Assembly: GCF_013817205.1 (NCBI RefSeq)
Contig: NZ_JACDDD010000042.1
Span: 1 to 32,299, forward strand
Direction of reading: 5' to 3'
DNA: 32,299 nt
From: Polaromonas sp.
GTDB taxonomy: Bacteria; Pseudomonadota; Gammaproteobacteria; Burkholderiales; Burkholderiaceae_C
Of this stretch, positions 20,741 through 27,529 are shown piece after piece. The position numbers were made by a program, and so were the translations under genes. The notes beneath the pieces were generated by a model. The model ran no database searches. It was not told the DNA's origin and worked only from the letters and a program-made list of their open reading frames with translations. Every line of letters begins with the position of its first letter. The first letter of the stretch is position 1.

Positions 20741-21523
20741 TCATGCTTTAAGGTTGCTGTAAAGGCCGGTGATGCGGTCCATGACACTCAGCAGGTTTTC
20801 GCTGGAAACAAACACGTCGGACATCAGTTTGGGTGAACTGCGTGCGCCTTCCAGGCGGCTCAAGCCCAGGTCAAAAAAGACCCATTGACTATCGGCCAAT
20901 GCCAGTTCTTCCTTGATCCGGGGAGTGGCTTCGGGTGCCTTGCGCAGCACTGCGAGTGCTGCTATGAATTCACCGCGCGATTTTGCAATTTCTGCAATGC
21001 TGCCATGGGCGTCCATCTGCAGTGAGTTGGCCAGATAGAGCTTGGCCATGCGCTGCGACAACATGCGCTGGCGGCCTGCGATATTGACGAGTTTCCCCAC
21101 GACGGCCGATCCGCCCGTTTGCTCGTACTGCCGCGTGCCCTGGTTAGCCAGCGAGAGAATCTTCGCGTCCAGTTGCATCAGTTTCAGGGCGTGTTCCTTG
21201 TCGGGGACGGTGCCCACCAGCACTGACTTGAACTCGCTCCAGAGGTTTTCGAGCTTTGCGTAGGTATCGCGGATCTCAGCGTGGGGTGCATAGGCCTTCA
21301 GCTCGACCAGCTGCCGGTCGAATGTGGACATCGAGCGGTCCAGCACCTGCTGCGCACTGCTGGTTTCGACTTTCTGGATCAGGGCGAGGTAGGCCTTGCT
21401 CATGCGCTGGGAGAGCATGCGCTGGCGCCCCGCTTTGTTGATGGCATCGTTCATGTCGGCCACTTGCGAGTGAGCCGTCATGCCGAGTAAGGCCGCTGAA
21501 GCGATAAAAATCCGTCTTTTCAC
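20741..21523 (-). CDS. Secreted two-repeat PilJ/NarX-type sensor-domain protein
   Basis: A 260-residue protein with a signal peptide (MKRRIFIASAALLGMTAHSQ) and no later membrane segment, so it is probably soluble in the periplasm. It contains two PilJ N-terminal-type helical repeats, each opening with nearly the same motif: AGRQRMLSQRMSKAY at residues 31-45 and AGRQRMLSQRMAKLY at 149-163. That motif belongs to the PilJ/NarX/NarQ periplasmic family, where the matching segment contacts nitrate in NarX/NarQ. It has no kinase, methyl-accepting or output domain. Lying between nirB (47-base gap) and nirD (12-base gap), it is almost certainly co-expressed with nitrite reductase. I infer a nitrate/nitrite-binding or sensing accessory role; the partner is unknown. 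The divergent ANTAR regulator carries the same motif twice. Confidence 0.8.
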   Translation of the reverse strand: MKRRIFIASAALLGMTAHSQVADMNDAINKAGRQRMLSQRMSKAYLALIQKVETSSAQQVLDRSMSTFDRQLVELKAYAPHAEIRDTYAKLENLWSEFKSVLVGTVPDKEHALKLMQLDAKILSLANQGTRQYEQTGGSAVVGKLVNIAGRQRMLSQRMAKLYLANSLQMDAHGSIAEIAKSRGEFIAALAVLRKAPEATPRIKEELALADSQWVFFDLGLSRLEGARSSPKLMSDVFVSSENLLSVMDRITGLYSNLKA

Positions 21524-21570: not shown

Positions 21571-24006
21571 TCAGACCGCAGCGAGTTTCTCGAATTGCCG
21601 CGTATCCACGGCCGCTTCCTTCAGATCGAACCAGGGATCGGGCTCACCGTCGAGTGCAAACTGCAATTGCTCCCACAGGGCCTTGCGGCCTTCGTGGTCA
21701 TCAAGAATTTTCTTTTTCACATAGTCCAGTCCGACCCGGTTCACGTAATGCACCGTGCGCTCAAGATACCAGCCTTCCTGGCGGTAAAGCTCGCAGAAAG
21801 CGCCGGTGTACTCCAGCACTTCGGCGGCAGTCTTGAGTTTGGTGAAAAAGTGCGCCACCTCGGTCTTGATGCCGCCATTGCCGGCGATGTACATCTCCCA
21901 GCCGGAATCGACACCAATGATGCCCACGTCCTTGATGCCTGACTCGGCGCAGTTGCGCGGGCAACCGCTGACCGCGAACTTGACCTTGTGCGGTGCGTAC
22001 ATGCGCCACATCGCGCGCTCCAGGTCCTTGCCCATCTGCGTGCTGTCCTGCGTGCCCATGCGGCACCATTCGCTGCCGACACAGGTTTTCACCGTGCGCA
22101 GCGCTTTGGCATACGCGTGGCCCGAAGGCATGCCGATGTCTTTCCAGACGTTCTGCAAATCCTCTTTCTTCACACCCAGCAAATCGATACGCTGGCCGCC
22201 GGTGACCTTGACCGTCGGAATTTTGTACTTGTCCACCGCATCGGCAATGCGGCGCAGCTCGCTGGCTGTGGTTTCGCCGCCCCACATGCGCGGGATCACG
22301 CTGTAGGTGCCGTCCTTCTGGATGTTGGCATGGCTGCGTTCGTTGATGTAGCGGCTTTGCGGATCGTCTTTCGCTTGCTTGGGCCAGGTGCTGATCAGGT
22401 AATAGTTGACGGCTGGGCGGCAACTTGCGCAACCATTGGGCGTCTTCCAGTCCATGAACTTGAAAGTATCGGCAATGGTCATCAGTTTGTTGTTGCGGAT
22501 CGCGTCGCGCACCGCCTGGTGCCCGTGGTCGGTGCAGCTGCACATGGCCTTGAGCTTCGGCGTGGCGGAGTAGTCGCCGCCGGCAGTGAACATCAGGATC
22601 TGTTCGACCAGCCCGGTGCAGGAGCCGCAGGAGGCGCTGGCCTTGGTGTGCTTGCGCACCTCGTCGAGGGTAAACAGGCCTTTTTCCTTGATGGCCTTGC
22701 AGATCGTTCCCTTGTTCACGCCGTTGCAGCCGCAGACCTCGGCTTCATCGGGCATGGACGCCGCCTTGCTGTGGCCCTCGTGACCGGCGTCGCCGATGTT
22801 CGATTCGCCGAACATCAGGCGTTCGCGTATGTCGCCGACGCTGCGGCCGTCGCGCAGCAGCTTGAAGTAGTAGCTGCCGTCCACGGTGTCGCCATACAGG
22901 CAGGCGCCGATGAGCTTGTCGTCCTTGATGACCAGTTTTTTGTAGACCCCACCGAAGGGGTCGCTCATGATGATTTCTTCGGTGCCTTCACCGCCCATGA
23001 ATTCGCCCGCGGAAAAGAGATCGATGCCGGTGACCTTGAGCTTGGTGGAGGTGAGCGAGCCGGTGTAGCGGCCGATGCCGAATTGCGCCAGATGGTTGGC
23101 GGCGACCTTGGCTTGCTCGAACAGCGGCGCGACCAGGCCGTAGGCGATGCCGCGGTGCGCCGCACATTCACCCACGGAATAGATGCGCGCGTCAGTGACG
23201 GTCTGCATGGTGTCGTTGACCACAATGCCCTTGTTGCAGTGCAGGCGCATTTTTTCGGCCAACTCGGTGTTGGGCCGGATGCCGACCGCCATCACGACCA
23301 GGTCGGTGACCAGTTCGGTGCCATCCTTGAACTTGATGCTGGCGACGCGGCCATCGGCGTTACCCACCAGTTCCTGGGTCTGCGCACCCATCAGGAACTT
23401 GAGACCGCGGCCTTCCAGCGATTTTTGCAGCAGCTTGCCGGCCACGCTGTCGAGTTGACGCTCCATCAGTGTGGGCATGACGTGCACCACGCTGACGTTC
23501 ATGCCGCGCAGCATCAACCCGTTGGCTGCTTCCAGACCGAGCAGGCCGCCACCGATGACCACGGCATTTTTGTACTTCACCGCAGCGTCAATCATCGCGT
23601 TGGTGTCGGCAATGTCGCGGTAGGCAATCACGCCCTGCAGGTCCTTGCCCGGTATGGGCAGGATGAACGGGTTGGAGCCGGTGCACATCAGCAGCCGGTC
23701 GTATTCCTCTTCGGTGCCATCTTCGGCGCGCACCACGCGCTTGATGCGGTCCACCTCAACGACTTTTTTGCCGGCGTGCAGCGTGATGTGGTTGTCCTTG
23801 TACCAATCCCAGCTGTTGAGCACGATCTCGTCCAGTGTCTGTTCGCCGGCCAGCACCGGGCTGAGCAGAATGCGGTTGTAGTTGGGATGCGGCTCGGCAC
23901 CAAAAACCGAGATGTCATACAACTCGGGCGCGACCTTGAGCAATTCTTCAATAGTGCGCACGCCGGCCATACCGTTGCCGACCATCACGAGTTTTGATTT
24001 TTTCAT
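21571..24006 (-). CDS. nirB: NADH-dependent nitrite reductase large subunit
   Basis: Reduces nitrite to ammonium with NADH through FAD, iron-sulfur clusters and siroheme. The 811-residue length is typical. An FAD/NAD oxidoreductase domain occupies about 1-320 (VMVGNGMAGVRTIEELL, VIGGGLLGLEAANGL), with a rubredoxin-reductase-like C-terminal part to about 390. BFD-type [2Fe-2S] segments lie at about 424-475 (CGCNGVNKG...CGSCTG) and 487-530 (CSCTDHG...GCASC). The siroheme/[4Fe-4S] part follows, with CVGSEWCRMGTQDS near 640 and SGCPRNCAESGIKD near 680. ATG 24006 is chosen because GGAG lies eight bases upstream and the product starts MKKSKLVMVGNG; a longer frame from 24066 lacks support. It is the first enzyme gene of the operon, downstream of the leader described separately. 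Confidence 0.97.
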   Translation of the reverse strand: MKKSKLVMVGNGMAGVRTIEELLKVAPELYDISVFGAEPHPNYNRILLSPVLAGEQTLDEIVLNSWDWYKDNHITLHAGKKVVEVDRIKRVVRAEDGTEEEYDRLLMCTGSNPFILPIPGKDLQGVIAYRDIADTNAMIDAAVKYKNAVVIGGGLLGLEAANGLMLRGMNVSVVHVMPTLMERQLDSVAGKLLQKSLEGRGLKFLMGAQTQELVGNADGRVASIKFKDGTELVTDLVVMAVGIRPNTELAEKMRLHCNKGIVVNDTMQTVTDARIYSVGECAAHRGIAYGLVAPLFEQAKVAANHLAQFGIGRYTGSLTSTKLKVTGIDLFSAGEFMGGEGTEEIIMSDPFGGVYKKLVIKDDKLIGACLYGDTVDGSYYFKLLRDGRSVGDIRERLMFGESNIGDAGHEGHSKAASMPDEAEVCGCNGVNKGTICKAIKEKGLFTLDEVRKHTKASASCGSCTGLVEQILMFTAGGDYSATPKLKAMCSCTDHGHQAVRDAIRNNKLMTIADTFKFMDWKTPNGCASCRPAVNYYLISTWPKQAKDDPQSRYINERSHANIQKDGTYSVIPRMWGGETTASELRRIADAVDKYKIPTVKVTGGQRIDLLGVKKEDLQNVWKDIGMPSGHAYAKALRTVKTCVGSEWCRMGTQDSTQMGKDLERAMWRMYAPHKVKFAVSGCPRNCAESGIKDVGIIGVDSGWEMYIAGNGGIKTEVAHFFTKLKTAAEVLEYTGAFCELYRQEGWYLERTVHYVNRVGLDYVKKKILDDHEGRKALWEQLQFALDGEPDPWFDLKEAAVDTRQFEKLAAV

Positions 24007-24010
24007 GCGC

Positions 24011-24118
24011 TTACTCCAGATTGATTGATGCGTTAATCGCAAGCGCCGTGCCACGGGCCGGGCCACTCAGGGCGGGTGCACCGGCATGCCGGCTTTGAAA
24101 ATGTGAGGTTGAAACCAT
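24011..24118 (-). CDS. 35-residue leader ORF coupled to nirB
   Basis: An ATG at 24118 preceded by AGGAGAG opens a 35-codon frame beginning MVSTSHFQSRHAG and ending TAA at 24011-24013. The stop overlaps the spacer after the nirB Shine-Dalgarno (GGAGTAAGCGC), and the nirB ATG follows four bases later, so translation of nirB could be coupled to this ORF. Its own Shine-Dalgarno lies in the 3' arm of a small hairpin (CCTGT-TCG-ACAGG, about 24138-24126). The peptide matches no family I know and is not rich in one amino acid. Confidence 0.5.
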   Translation of the reverse strand: MVSTSHFQSRHAGAPALSGPARGTALAINASINLE

Positions 24119-24176
24119 GATGCTCTCTCCTGTCGAACAGGGACACGGCCGTGGAGCCGGTATGAGGCACATCAAT

Positions 24177-24239
24177 ACGCACGTCGTTATGCGCAGAACC
24201 CGCAGTGCTTTCGCTAAGGTTGGGCGCTCCGTTACGCCC
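24177..24239 (-). promoter_or_regulatory. Dual-hexaloop ANTAR-type leader RNA of the nirB operon
   Basis: Read as RNA from the minus strand, GGGCGU (24239-24234) and GCGCCC (24227-24222) enclose the six-base loop AACGGA. Then GCGCAU (24194-24189) and GUGCGU (24182-24177) enclose AACGAC, extended by a U-A pair. Two short stems with hexaloops having A at position 1 and G at position 4 are the known recognition element of ANTAR antiterminators (NasR, NasT, EutV). The 27-base linker can itself fold (AACC/GGUU with a GC-GAAA-GC core). Hairpin 1 starts at the second base of the transcript predicted from the sigma-54 promoter. No GC hairpin with a U run is evident between hairpin 2 and nirB. Confidence 0.75.
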
Positions 24240-24251
24240 TAACATGACTAC

Positions 24252-24266
24252 GCAAAAGTTGTGCCA
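24252..24266 (-). promoter_or_regulatory. Sigma-54 promoter of the nirB operon
   Basis: TGGCACAACTTTTGC on the minus strand matches the -24/-12 consensus with exact GG-N10-GC spacing. The -12 C is at 24252, placing the start at A24240, one base before the first leader hairpin. An NtrC-like half-site TGCACC lies immediately upstream (24278-24273). Sigma-54 control by NtrC is known for the Klebsiella nas operon; a full upstream NtrC site is not evident here. Confidence 0.8.
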
Positions 24267-24364: not shown

Positions 24365-25648
24365 ATGATTTCCGCACTGGTAATTCTCAATGGCCCCGAG
24401 GGCCCGCATTCGCTTGCCGCTGACCTCGAAGCGGTGGGTATCCAGGTGCTGGGAACTGTGCGCGGATGCAGCAAACTGGTGCAGGAGGTTTTGCGCCAGC
24501 AGCCCGATGTGGTGATCTGCGACAGCCCGACTCCCGCTGAAGAGTTTTTCAAGGCCTTGCAGATCGTCGGCGACACCTCACCCCGTCCGCTGATCGTCTT
24601 CACTACCGCCCCCGACGCAGACAGGATCACCCGTGCCACCGAAGCAGGCATTCACGCCTATGTGGTCAATGGCTACGGCCGGCAGCGCCTGCGCCCGCTC
24701 GTTCACCTGGCACAGGCGCGCTTTAGCCGCGAACAGGCCCAGCGCGAAGAGATGCGCGATATCGCCAGCCGGCTGGAAGAGCGCAAGGTGGTGGACCGCG
24801 CCAAGGGCATATTGATGCGGGCCAGGGAGGTGTCCGACGACGATGCCTTCAAGATGCTGCGCACCGCCTCCATGCACAGCAACCAGCGCCTGGGCCAGGT
24901 GTCCCAGCACATCATTCATTCCGCGCGTTTTGCCGAAGACGTGAATCGTTCTGGTCAATTGCGCATGTTGTCCCAGCGGCTGGTCAAGCTGGCGTTGCTG
25001 CAACTGGCTGGCGTGCAGACCGCGCAGGTGCAGGACCATCTGAATGACTCGGTCACGCGAATAGACGCCAACCTCGCGGGCCTGGGCAAAAGCCTGTCGC
25101 CGCCGACCTTTGGCGACCTGCTGGAGCAGGTGCAGCGCACCTGGTCACAACTCAAGCCTCTGCTGCAGGGAGTGCCTGCACCTGCCCACATGCTGCAGCT
25201 GGACGCCCTGGCAGGCCAGCTGCTGCAGGAGGCCGAACGCCTGACCAGCAGCCTGGAAAACGCCGGCGCCATGCCCCCCCTGCAGGTGCTCAACCTGGCC
25301 GGGCGCCAGCGCATGCTGAGCCAGCGCTATGCCAAGTATGCGTTGGCCGGCATGCTGGGCGCGCAGGCCGGTATCGCACCGGACGCTCTGGGCCTGGACG
25401 AAACCCGGGCTGCTTTCGAAGAGGCGCTGGCCTACCTGAACACCATTCCGCTGAGCAGCAAGGAAATCCGCAGCTTGTTGGAAGCCGCTGCCGTGAGCTG
25501 GGCGCAGATGCTGGCTGCCAGCGCGCCGGGTGTCCGGGCCAAAGCGCCCGATCTGGAGCGGGTGGCCGCAGCCAGTGAGGATTTGCTGGATGCCTTCGAC
25601 AAGCTGTCGCTTCATTACGGGCACAGCATGCAGATGCTGGTGGGTTGA
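24365..25648 (+). CDS. ANTAR-family nitrate regulator: pseudo-receiver, ANTAR, C-terminal PilJ-type domain
   Basis: Predicted RNA-binding antiterminator for the divergent nirB operon. The start ATG 24365 (MISALVILNGPEG) is chosen because receiver-like folding begins there. Residues 1-120 are a NasT-like receiver in which Asp53 is kept but the acidic pair is replaced by N9-G10. An ANTAR domain follows at about 127-186 (RLEERKVVDRAKGILM, DDAFKMLRTASM). The rest, about 190-427, is helical and holds two PilJ/NarX-type motifs, SGQLRMLSQRLVKLA at 196-210 and AGRQRMLSQRYAKYA at 312-326. Known nitrate ANTAR proteins are NasR (NIT sensor first, ANTAR last) or NasT (receiver-ANTAR with separate NasS); this joins a NasT-like front to a sensor-like tail. 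No signal peptide, so the tail would read cytoplasmic nitrate or nitrite. The sensing role is inferred. Confidence 0.85.
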   Translation: MISALVILNGPEGPHSLAADLEAVGIQVLGTVRGCSKLVQEVLRQQPDVVICDSPTPAEEFFKALQIVGDTSPRPLIVFTTAPDADRITRATEAGIHAYVVNGYGRQRLRPLVHLAQARFSREQAQREEMRDIASRLEERKVVDRAKGILMRAREVSDDDAFKMLRTASMHSNQRLGQVSQHIIHSARFAEDVNRSGQLRMLSQRLVKLALLQLAGVQTAQVQDHLNDSVTRIDANLAGLGKSLSPPTFGDLLEQVQRTWSQLKPLLQGVPAPAHMLQLDALAGQLLQEAERLTSSLENAGAMPPLQVLNLAGRQRMLSQRYAKYALAGMLGAQAGIAPDALGLDETRAAFEEALAYLNTIPLSSKEIRSLLEAAAVSWAQMLAASAPGVRAKAPDLERVAAASEDLLDAFDKLSLHYGHSMQMLVG

Positions 25649-25681
25649 TGGCATGCTCGCCCGTCACCTGTTTTGCTGCAG

Positions 25682-25721
25682 TGCACCAAATTTGGGCGCA
25701 AAACTTGCTTGGTTTGGTGCA
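25682..25721. promoter_or_regulatory. Nine-base inverted repeat at the start of the phosphatase/kinase gene
   Basis: TGCACCAAA (25682-25690) and its exact reverse complement TTTGGTGCA (25713-25721) are 22 bases apart. The second arm ends on the A of the chosen start codon, so an RNA hairpin would cover the ribosome-binding region. The arms also resemble NtrC half-sites (TGCACCA), but the spacing is not that of a single NtrC site. Confidence 0.4.
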
Positions 25722-27529
25722 TGGCATTTGACATAGACATCGGTTTCGCAAGCCTCGCCGGCCGCAAGGAGGTCAACGAGGACTTTTGCGCAGCCATGTT
25801 GCCTGAACCGGGCCAGGAGGGCATGGGTTCCATCGTGGCGATTGCCGACGGCGTCAGCACCGGCGGCATGGGCAAGGAGGCCGCACAAACCACGGTCACC
25901 AGCCTGGTGCGCGACTATTACGGTACGCCCGAAACCTGGGACACCACGGTGGCGCTGGACCGCATCATCAGTGCGCAAAACGCCTGGCTGGCCGGGCTGA
26001 ACCGGCGCCGGCACCCGGCCCTCGGGCTGACCACGCTGACCGCGCTGGTGCTGCGTGGCCAGTCTTACGCGCTGGCGCATGTGGGCGACACCCGCGCCTA
26101 CCTGCTGCGCGAAGGCCGCATGACGCAGCTCACCACTGACCACGTGATGGATCACCCGGACCTGCGGCACCAGCTCCTGCGCTGCGTCGGTGCGGAAGAC
26201 CGCCTGGTCATGGACTACACCCAGGGCGACCTGCAGGTGGGGGATGTGTTTGTGCTGCTGTCCGACGGCGTGCACAACGTGATGACGGACAAAAAGCTGC
26301 AGGTCCTGGCCAGTGCCGACGCGTCCTCAGCCTCCGAAGGCCGGGCGCAACGCATCTGCCGTCAGATGGTGGATGCCGCGATTGCGGCAGGCACGCCGGA
26401 CAACGCCACCGCTTTGGTGGTGCGAGTGCTTGGTTTGCTGGACGCCACGCTGGACGACGAAAACCGGCGTGCGCTGGCTCTGCCAGTGCCCGGCAGGCTC
26501 AGGGTCGGGGACAGCCTGGACGGCCTGATCGTGACCGCGCCGGTGGCTGACAACGGCATCAACGTTTTGTACCAGGTCAGGTGGAGTCGCCCCCCGGCGG
26601 ATGCAGACCCCGAAACACGGCCCACCAGCGGCAAGCTGTACGCCCTGAAGACACTGCACCCGGCGCGGGCCCATGACCCGCAGGAGCGCGCCATGCTGGC
26701 GCACGAGGCCTGGCTCGCCCGGCGCATGCGCTCCTCGCGTGTGGCTGGCCACCTGGTGCATATTCACGACCGTCTGCCCGGCGGTGGCGAGCCTGGCGCG
26801 TTTTACCTTCTGTACGACTGGCATGCCGGTGAAACCCTACAACAGATGCTGGACCGCAAGCACCGCTTCAATCTGCCGCAGGTGCTGGCTCTGGCCACCC
26901 AGGCCGCCACGGCGCTGGGCCTGCTGCACCGGCAGCATGTCGTCCACCGCGACATCAAACCTGCCAACCTGCACCAAGGTGAGGACGGCGTGCTGCGCGT
27001 GCTGGACCTGGGCGTGGCCTTGACCGGGCGCGAGCCCGAGGCCATGCGCAAGCTGCATGCGGGCACGCCCAGCTACATCAATCCCGAGCAATGGGGCTTC
27101 AGCAGCCGGGCCGCGGCGGCGGGCAAGGATGGCCCCGAAGAATTGCCCGATGCGCAGAGCGACCTGTTTGCGCTGGGCGTCACCGTTTACCAACTGCTGA
27201 CTGGCAAGCTGCCCTATGGCGAGGTGCTGCCCTACCAGGCCGGGCGTTATTACCGCGACCCGACGCCGCCCAGCCGCCACAACCCCGAGGTGCCGATCTG
27301 GCTGGACCACGTGGTGCTCAAGGCCGTGGCACGCGACAAGCGCCAGCGTTTCGAAACGGCGGAAGAGTTGTTGCTGGCCATTGAACGCGGCGCCTCGCGA
27401 ACCTTGACGGCCCTGCCGGCAACGCCACTGATCCAGCGCGACCCGGTGGTTCTATGGAAGTTGGCGCTGGCCCTGTCCGTTTTATTCAACGTCTTGTTGG
27501 TGTACTGGCTGCTGTTCTTGCCGCGTTAG
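25721..27529 (+). CDS. PP2C phosphatase and Ser/Thr protein kinase fusion with C-terminal membrane anchor
   Basis: A 602-residue bifunctional signalling protein. The PP2C-type phosphatase part (about 1-240) shows EVNEDF, ADGVSTGGMG with metal-binding D43, HVGDTRAYLLR, LLSDGV and GTPDNATALVV. The kinase part (about 255-560) shows the ATP lysine K310 in LYALKTLHP, the catalytic HRDIKPAN with D411, DLG in place of DFG, and SDLFALGVTVYQLLTGKLPY; the glycine-rich loop is poorly kept (APVADNGINVLYQV). One hydrophobic segment near the C-terminus (about 577-598) should anchor it in the membrane with the catalytic domains in the cytoplasm. It follows the ANTAR gene by 72 bases on the same strand. From memory, Pseudomonas aeruginosa also has a kinase gene next to nirBD. 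ATG 25721 has only a weak ribosome-binding site; ATG 25673 is the alternative. Substrates are unknown. Confidence 0.88.
   Translation: MAFDIDIGFASLAGRKEVNEDFCAAMLPEPGQEGMGSIVAIADGVSTGGMGKEAAQTTVTSLVRDYYGTPETWDTTVALDRIISAQNAWLAGLNRRRHPALGLTTLTALVLRGQSYALAHVGDTRAYLLREGRMTQLTTDHVMDHPDLRHQLLRCVGAEDRLVMDYTQGDLQVGDVFVLLSDGVHNVMTDKKLQVLASADASSASEGRAQRICRQMVDAAIAAGTPDNATALVVRVLGLLDATLDDENRRALALPVPGRLRVGDSLDGLIVTAPVADNGINVLYQVRWSRPPADADPETRPTSGKLYALKTLHPARAHDPQERAMLAHEAWLARRMRSSRVAGHLVHIHDRLPGGGEPGAFYLLYDWHAGETLQQMLDRKHRFNLPQVLALATQAATALGLLHRQHVVHRDIKPANLHQGEDGVLRVLDLGVALTGREPEAMRKLHAGTPSYINPEQWGFSSRAAAAGKDGPEELPDAQSDLFALGVTVYQLLTGKLPYGEVLPYQAGRYYRDPTPPSRHNPEVPIWLDHVVLKAVARDKRQRFETAEELLLAIERGASRTLTALPATPLIQRDPVVLWKLALALSVLFNVLLVYWLLFLPR

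Follow-up and report, generated by a model that had tools for sequence, protein, structure and literature searches.

ANTAR proteins are best known as antiterminators. In the cited sections on the eut RNAs, the two hexaloop hairpins are separated by a linker of 5-12 nucleotides (nt), a linker of 14 nt weakens induction and a 20-nt extension abolishes antitermination (PMC3369931, PMC8934654), while the nitrate assimilation genes of Klebsiella oxytoca are described as being under the control of both the Ntr system and antitermination by NasR (PMC5424462, PMC7496416). The element described here lies in the leader of nirB, on the minus strand of a 32,299-nt stretch of DNA from Polaromonas sp. (contig NZ_JACDDD010000042.1, hereafter called the window), and is preceded by a sigma-54 site. 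The divergent neighbouring gene codes for a protein with a REC-like segment, an ANTAR domain and PilJ stretches (the REC-like-ANTAR-PilJ protein). The RNA, consisting of the three hairpins P1, P1b and P2, is predicted to be bound by this adjacent protein and could quite possibly control translation initiation of the first open reading frame (ORF) after it. From its sequence features the element is best filed as an ANTAR-target RNA with predicted translational output.

Like the eut RNAs, the window element has two hexaloop hairpins with A at loop position 1 (A1) and G at position 4 (G4), and EutV of Enterococcus, of which the structure is solved (6WSH), is closely related to the REC-ANTAR part of the window protein. 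The eut RNAs differ, however, in having a short linker and a second hairpin which overlaps the terminator. The linker between P1 and P2 of the window is 25 nt long, outside the 5-12 nt of an eut-type ANTAR RNA, and is itself folded as hairpin P1b, and its second hairpin overlaps no intrinsic terminator, a feature which ANTAR RNAs of the translational types do not need. The nasF leader of K. oxytoca, as far as the cited sources describe it, shares with the window an ANTAR protein with its own sensor, a dual hexaloop RNA, a place in nitrate assimilation and Ntr (NtrA/NtrB/NtrC) control, but it has an intrinsic terminator and no described third hairpin, and its sensor is a NIT domain. The window protein is not of the NasR type, having PilJ and not NIT, and its PDB match to NasR spans the ANTAR part only. 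NasT leaders resemble the window in combining a REC-like and ANTAR protein with a sigma-54-type site before the leader, but are described with a separate sensor, NasS (PMC5424462), a strong terminator and no PilJ fusion. The mycobacterial and actinobacterial ANTAR RNAs have translation as the proposed output in the cited section (PMC8164766), as does the window element, in which, unlike in those RNAs, a separate strand, S1, would act. Because K. oxytoca already couples a promoter under nitrogen control to a leader under nitrate control, this arrangement as such has a precedent. Novel features are the use of PilJ as sensor, a third hairpin, the lack of a terminator together with a predicted translational outlet, and an additional promoter site. 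Searches of open-licence papers brought up no account of a nitrate regulator combining PilJ with ANTAR, nor of this RNA.

P1 (GGGCGU[AACGGA]GCGCCC) and P2 (UGCGCAU[AACGAC]GUGCGUA) both appeared when the 234-nt leader was folded to minimum energy. This confirmed the two stems and hexaloops of a preliminary description of the locus, made from the DNA letters, although the leader as a whole was no more stable than shuffled sequences (z 0.37). Covariation of both stems in relatives had been set beforehand as the test, and the stems passed it. In alignment A1 (39 rows, 38 of them distinct, the row of L034 being cut by a contig end), 88.7 % of the positions over the 14 pairs of P1 and P2 were standard pairs and 11 of the 14 pairs had changes on both sides, values as high being found in 0 of 500 shuffles in each case. 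When the partner was slid by 1-3 columns as a control, pairing was only 21-67 %. Permutation of the strands of P1 and of P2 among 38 loci did not reach the observed value (Table 1), with the same outcome after thinning to 27 rows. The two halves of P1b also fitted better within a locus than between loci, with -10.24 compared with -7.52 kcal/mol (38 loci, 0/2000) and, for 27 thinned loci, -10.69 compared with -7.64 kcal/mol (0/2000). The paired layout that had been proposed stands as regards the dual hexaloops, except that a folded third hairpin separates P1 and P2.

The A1/G4 rule invoked in the preliminary description holds for both loops of the window, but A1 is not universal. Among 49 parsed elements, loop position 1 was A or G, with A in 29 of the P1 and 38 of the P2 loops and G in 20 of the P1 loops. 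G4 was present in 49/49 P1 and 49/49 P2 loops, a count which is not independent evidence because G4 was demanded by the search scripts or chosen by hand. The suggested search with a covariance model for ANTAR-binding RNAs brought no recognition: an Rfam scan gave no match at the gathering score, and only chance-level matches below it.

Table 1 Features of the nirB leader and its neighbourhood in the window (positions of the window)
Feature	Position	Strand	Basis
Sigma-54 site 1, TGGCACAACTTTTGC	24252..24266	-	Sequence; fixed distance before P1 in relatives
Hairpin P1, hexaloop AACGGA (24233-24228)	24222..24239	-	Fold; covariation; strand permutation 0/2000
Hairpin P1b in linker, loop GCAC 24208-24205	24197..24221	-	Strand permutation 0/2000; RNAalifold, seven leaders
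Hairpin P2, hexaloop AACGAC (24188-24183)	24176..24195	-	Fold; covariation; strand permutation 0/2000
Strand S1, GATGTGCCTC	24164..24173	-	Complements start region; GTGC 24170-24167 complements P1b loop
Small hairpin CCTGT-TCG-ACAGG, also covering Shine-Dalgarno	24129..24141	-	Fold; RNAalifold
Strand S2, GAGAGCATC, between Shine-Dalgarno and leader-ORF start; predicted S1 partner	24119..24127	-	Fold; without covariation
Leader ORF of 35 codons, ending 4 nt ahead of nirB	24011..24118	-	Start region conserved, peptide not
Sigma-54 site 2, TGGCACGGCGCTTGC	24039..24053	-	Recurs in nirB leaders of relatives
nirB	21571..24006	-	TIGR02374, 914.6 bits
PilJ-only protein, between nirB and nirD	20741..21523	-	Two perfect N-boxes
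REC-like-ANTAR-PilJ protein, predicted RNA binder and nitrate sensor	24365..25648	+	Pfam ANTAR and PilJ; N-box

The first sigma-54 site, TGGCAC-AACTT-TTGC (24266-24252), matches the TGGCAC-N5-TTGC consensus and its predicted transcript start, 24240, is one base ahead of P1, in agreement with the earlier proposal that a sigma-54 site feeds the dual-hexaloop RNA. In 39 related elements the distance from the first base of the promoter site to the first loop was 33-38 nt, and that between the two loops 42-47 nt.

A usable start, assigned by a Shine-Dalgarno rule or, failing that, by a NarK N-terminus, was located 27-66 nt after P2 in 33 of the 49 parsed elements. The first ORF of these near-start elements coded for a NarK-like transporter in 15 cases (called by an in-frame motif), was a short ORF of 17-57 codons in another 15 and something else in 3. 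For three downstream proteins which were checked, the best NCBIfam match was the NarK family, below the cut-off. Seven leaders were of the Polaromonas type, having a short ORF with a conserved Shine-Dalgarno sequence and start. The short ORF overlapped nirB as ATGA in L002, L031, L032 and L033, and its stop was 39 nt (L003) or 47 nt (L005) before nirB.

Transcription attenuation, in which the nitrate-bound protein would prevent premature termination in the leader, whether at an intrinsic terminator of unusual form or through the action of Rho on RNA that is not translated, is the described mode of NasR, EutV and NasT in the cited sections (PMC3369931, PMC7496416, PMC5424462). GC-rich hairpins after P2 in many leaders, and T-rich stretches in some leaders with a distant nirB start, are in keeping with it. 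We nevertheless regard attenuation as rather unlikely at this locus. No intrinsic terminator was found in the window leader with a standard rule, so that the absence remarked on in the preliminary description was real, and a relaxed rule gave weak sites in only 2 of 44 family leaders, one among the 11 whose nirB start is distant and one among the remaining 33. The 44 leaders were taken from the 49 parsed ones (L006, L044, L061, L106 and L108 were left out), and the relaxed rule detected the terminator of a NasT leader of the same genome, the positive control, which the standard rule misses on account of its loop limit. In 15 of the 33 near-start elements, moreover, the start codon of the NarK-like gene itself lies 27-66 nt after P2. 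Rho, translation of the leader ORF and a terminator not apparent by eye had been put forward as outlets of the switch; comparison among relatives speaks for translation of the leader ORF, the terminator being represented by the two weak sites only, and Rho is still a candidate.

Translational control would act through strand S1 (GUGCCUC), which is complementary to the Shine-Dalgarno/start region of the first ORF, with -12.06 kcal/mol compared with -9.31 kcal/mol for shuffled sequences (0/1000, 24 loci). A helix between S1 and the start region was predicted by RNAalifold from seven leaders. When S1 was blocked, the mean computed cost of opening the start region decreased from 9.4 to 7.7 kcal/mol, compared with 9.1 kcal/mol for other blocks, the S1 block being better than the mean of the others in 24 of 33 loci and better than every other in 15. 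The same strand matches the loop of P1b. GCAC in this loop and GUGC in S1 were found together in 30 of the 49 elements, and four genomes of one genus had GAUAC:GUAUC in place of GCAC:GUGC. Matches between the P1b loop and S1 were present in 34/49 elements (10,000 shuffles gave 20.7 on average and 28 at most) and were concentrated in the near-start elements (31/33, compared with 3/16 others, namely L006, L044 and L062). On a protein tree of 33 rows, from which one of 38 parsed sets was left out, its protein being absent from the database, three changes are required to explain the joint state of loop and S1, and well-supported branches make two of these unavoidable. Pairing of the P1b loop with S1 is no more than plausible.

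Several results weigh against control of the start region by S1. The S1/start-region helix had no covariation, the permutations giving 2190/5000 and 2595/5000 for 24 and 17 loci, 1377/5000 and 1746/5000 for 33 and 22 loci, and, in this larger set, 784/5000 and 634/5000 for the outer part of the helix alone, and no pair of the helix covaried in the RNAalifold prediction from seven leaders. The P1b-loop/S1 match was not significant by duplex energy (1295/5000), and the rows are related, the GAUAC change probably being one event. In the window, the gain from blocking S1 was only 0.7 kcal/mol, because another hairpin also covers the Shine-Dalgarno sequence, and nothing was gained in several relatives (e.g. 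L002, L003, L031, L047, L052, L100). The leader peptide was not conserved among the seven Polaromonas-type leaders, and P2 and the S1 helix are directly adjacent and compatible with each other. Finally, twelve elements without an S1/P1b match (L036, L037, L039-L043, L045, L046, L049, L106 and L108) retain P1, P1b and P2, the nirB start being distant in most, and the output is consequently not identical in all elements.

With these points taken into account, it is conceivable, but doubtful in this complete form, that S1 has two alternative partners, the start region of the first ORF and the P1b loop, that the nitrate-sensing ANTAR protein gripping both hexaloops decides between them, and that in Polaromonas the switch gates a tiny leader ORF handing ribosomes to nirB and is bypassed by transcription from the second sigma-54 promoter. 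In the favoured account, the leader would be made by sigma-54 polymerase when nitrogen is limiting. Without nitrate, S1 would pair with the start region of the leader ORF and ribosomes would be kept off, whereas with nitrate an ANTAR dimer would hold P1 and P2, the P1b loop would capture S1 and the start region would open. Translation of the leader ORF, the stop of which lies 4 nt ahead of nirB, would follow, and the ribosomes would pass to nirB by coupling and shield the RNA from Rho. Control of the opposite sign, with the protein binding without nitrate and stabilising the closed leader until nitrate releases it, is improbable, since in the cited sections NasR and NasT are both activators, the former binding RNA when nitrate is present and the latter being set free by nitrate to act (PMC7496416, PMC5424462), and the P1b-loop/S1 complement gives a route for opening, even if mycobacterial ANTAR RNAs are reported there to repress translation when bound (PMC8164766) and the coexistence of P2 and the S1 helix would suit it.

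If nitrate-dependent opening of the start region is true, the family shows an ANTAR protein opening a ribosome-binding site, a folded third hairpin bridging a long linker of the kind that abolishes eut action, and nitrate sensing rebuilt with PilJ; the motif can be searched for in other Burkholderiales. The same genome also holds a classical NasT antitermination leader (L091, 2484-3560 of contig C63), and the two outputs can therefore be compared side by side. At L091, a gene for a NasT-like protein with an ANTAR domain and a REC-like segment comes first, then a sigma-54-type site and a leader (fold z -6.4) with a hexaloop hairpin and a strong terminator, and the genes after the leader resemble, by eye, a nitrate ABC transporter.

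The REC-like-ANTAR-PilJ protein is likely to be the nitrate sensor, judged from its PilJ domains, which are predicted to bind nitrate. Its second PilJ half, LNLAGRQRMLSQ, matches the N-box exactly, and the first half, VNRSGQLRMLSQ, departs from it at two positions. The nitrate-sensing ANTAR neighbour of the preliminary description was supported in this respect, with the ANTAR gene adjoining the leader. The receiver match of the protein was below the Pfam cut-off. In the PilJ-only protein encoded between nirB and nirD, both halves match the N-box exactly and the N-terminus is signal-like; this protein is possibly another nitrate sensor of the operon. A weak PDB match to 6GCV (E 0.023), which we take to be McpN, was also obtained. 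The PilJ domain of McpN is similar in the N-box, as present in the second PilJ half and in both halves of the PilJ-only protein, but belongs to a chemoreceptor and not to an RNA-binding fusion. The N-box pattern used was [IVL]-[ND]-x-A-G-x-Q-R-M-L-[ST]-Q, from a paper which, in the section cited, lists transcriptional regulators among N-box proteins (PMC6381276).

A second perfect TGGCAC-N5-TTGC is present 47 nt before nirB. Sigma-54 sites 47-70 nt before nirB were found in 10 of the 18 nirB leaders counted, compared with 0.008 expected from base shuffles, a count which leaves out L005, L047 and L035 and in which several of the ten are close relatives. This site would bypass the RNA element, giving a transcript independent of the switch. 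The possibility that it is kept merely as coding sequence was set aside, since the leader ORF of L003 stops within the site and since the site is also present in L036, L043, L045 and L046, which lack a leader ORF with a near start.

Of 399 genomes sampled from the family, 44 had the REC-like-ANTAR-PilJ protein (E <= 1e-80), and in 40 of these P1 and P2 could be placed beside the gene, with scripts for some and by hand for others. Among the exceptions, G445 had no element, G116 an atypical P1 and G106 no P2, and in G068 the second hairpin pairs poorly, yet its row was kept in alignment A1. The second loop of L048 has seven bases. Beside three more distant proteins (L115-L117), P1 was present and no P2 was visible. 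A model search of the window genome gave one strong copy of the element (76.2 bits, E 3e-11) and no second one among the 150 of 5766 candidates scored, the next best having 18.6 bits (E 2.4). An order-wide model search found the element in 3 of 399 genomes, with 12 candidates scored per genome, and does not establish absence reliably. One genome (G006) has two ANTAR-PilJ copies, at one of which (L004, contig C603) the element precedes a gene for a repetitive asparagine-rich protein, not nirB or narK. At L047 (G331), the NarK-like frame after the element appears disrupted, with nirB further downstream.

On the minus strand of the window, nirB is followed by the PilJ-only gene, nirD and a molybdopterin oxidoreductase gene, the product of which is like assimilatory nitrate reductases, under the curated cut-offs. 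Directly downstream of the ANTAR gene, on the plus strand, the ORF at 25673-27529 codes for a PP2C-type phosphatase joined to a Ser/Thr kinase domain.
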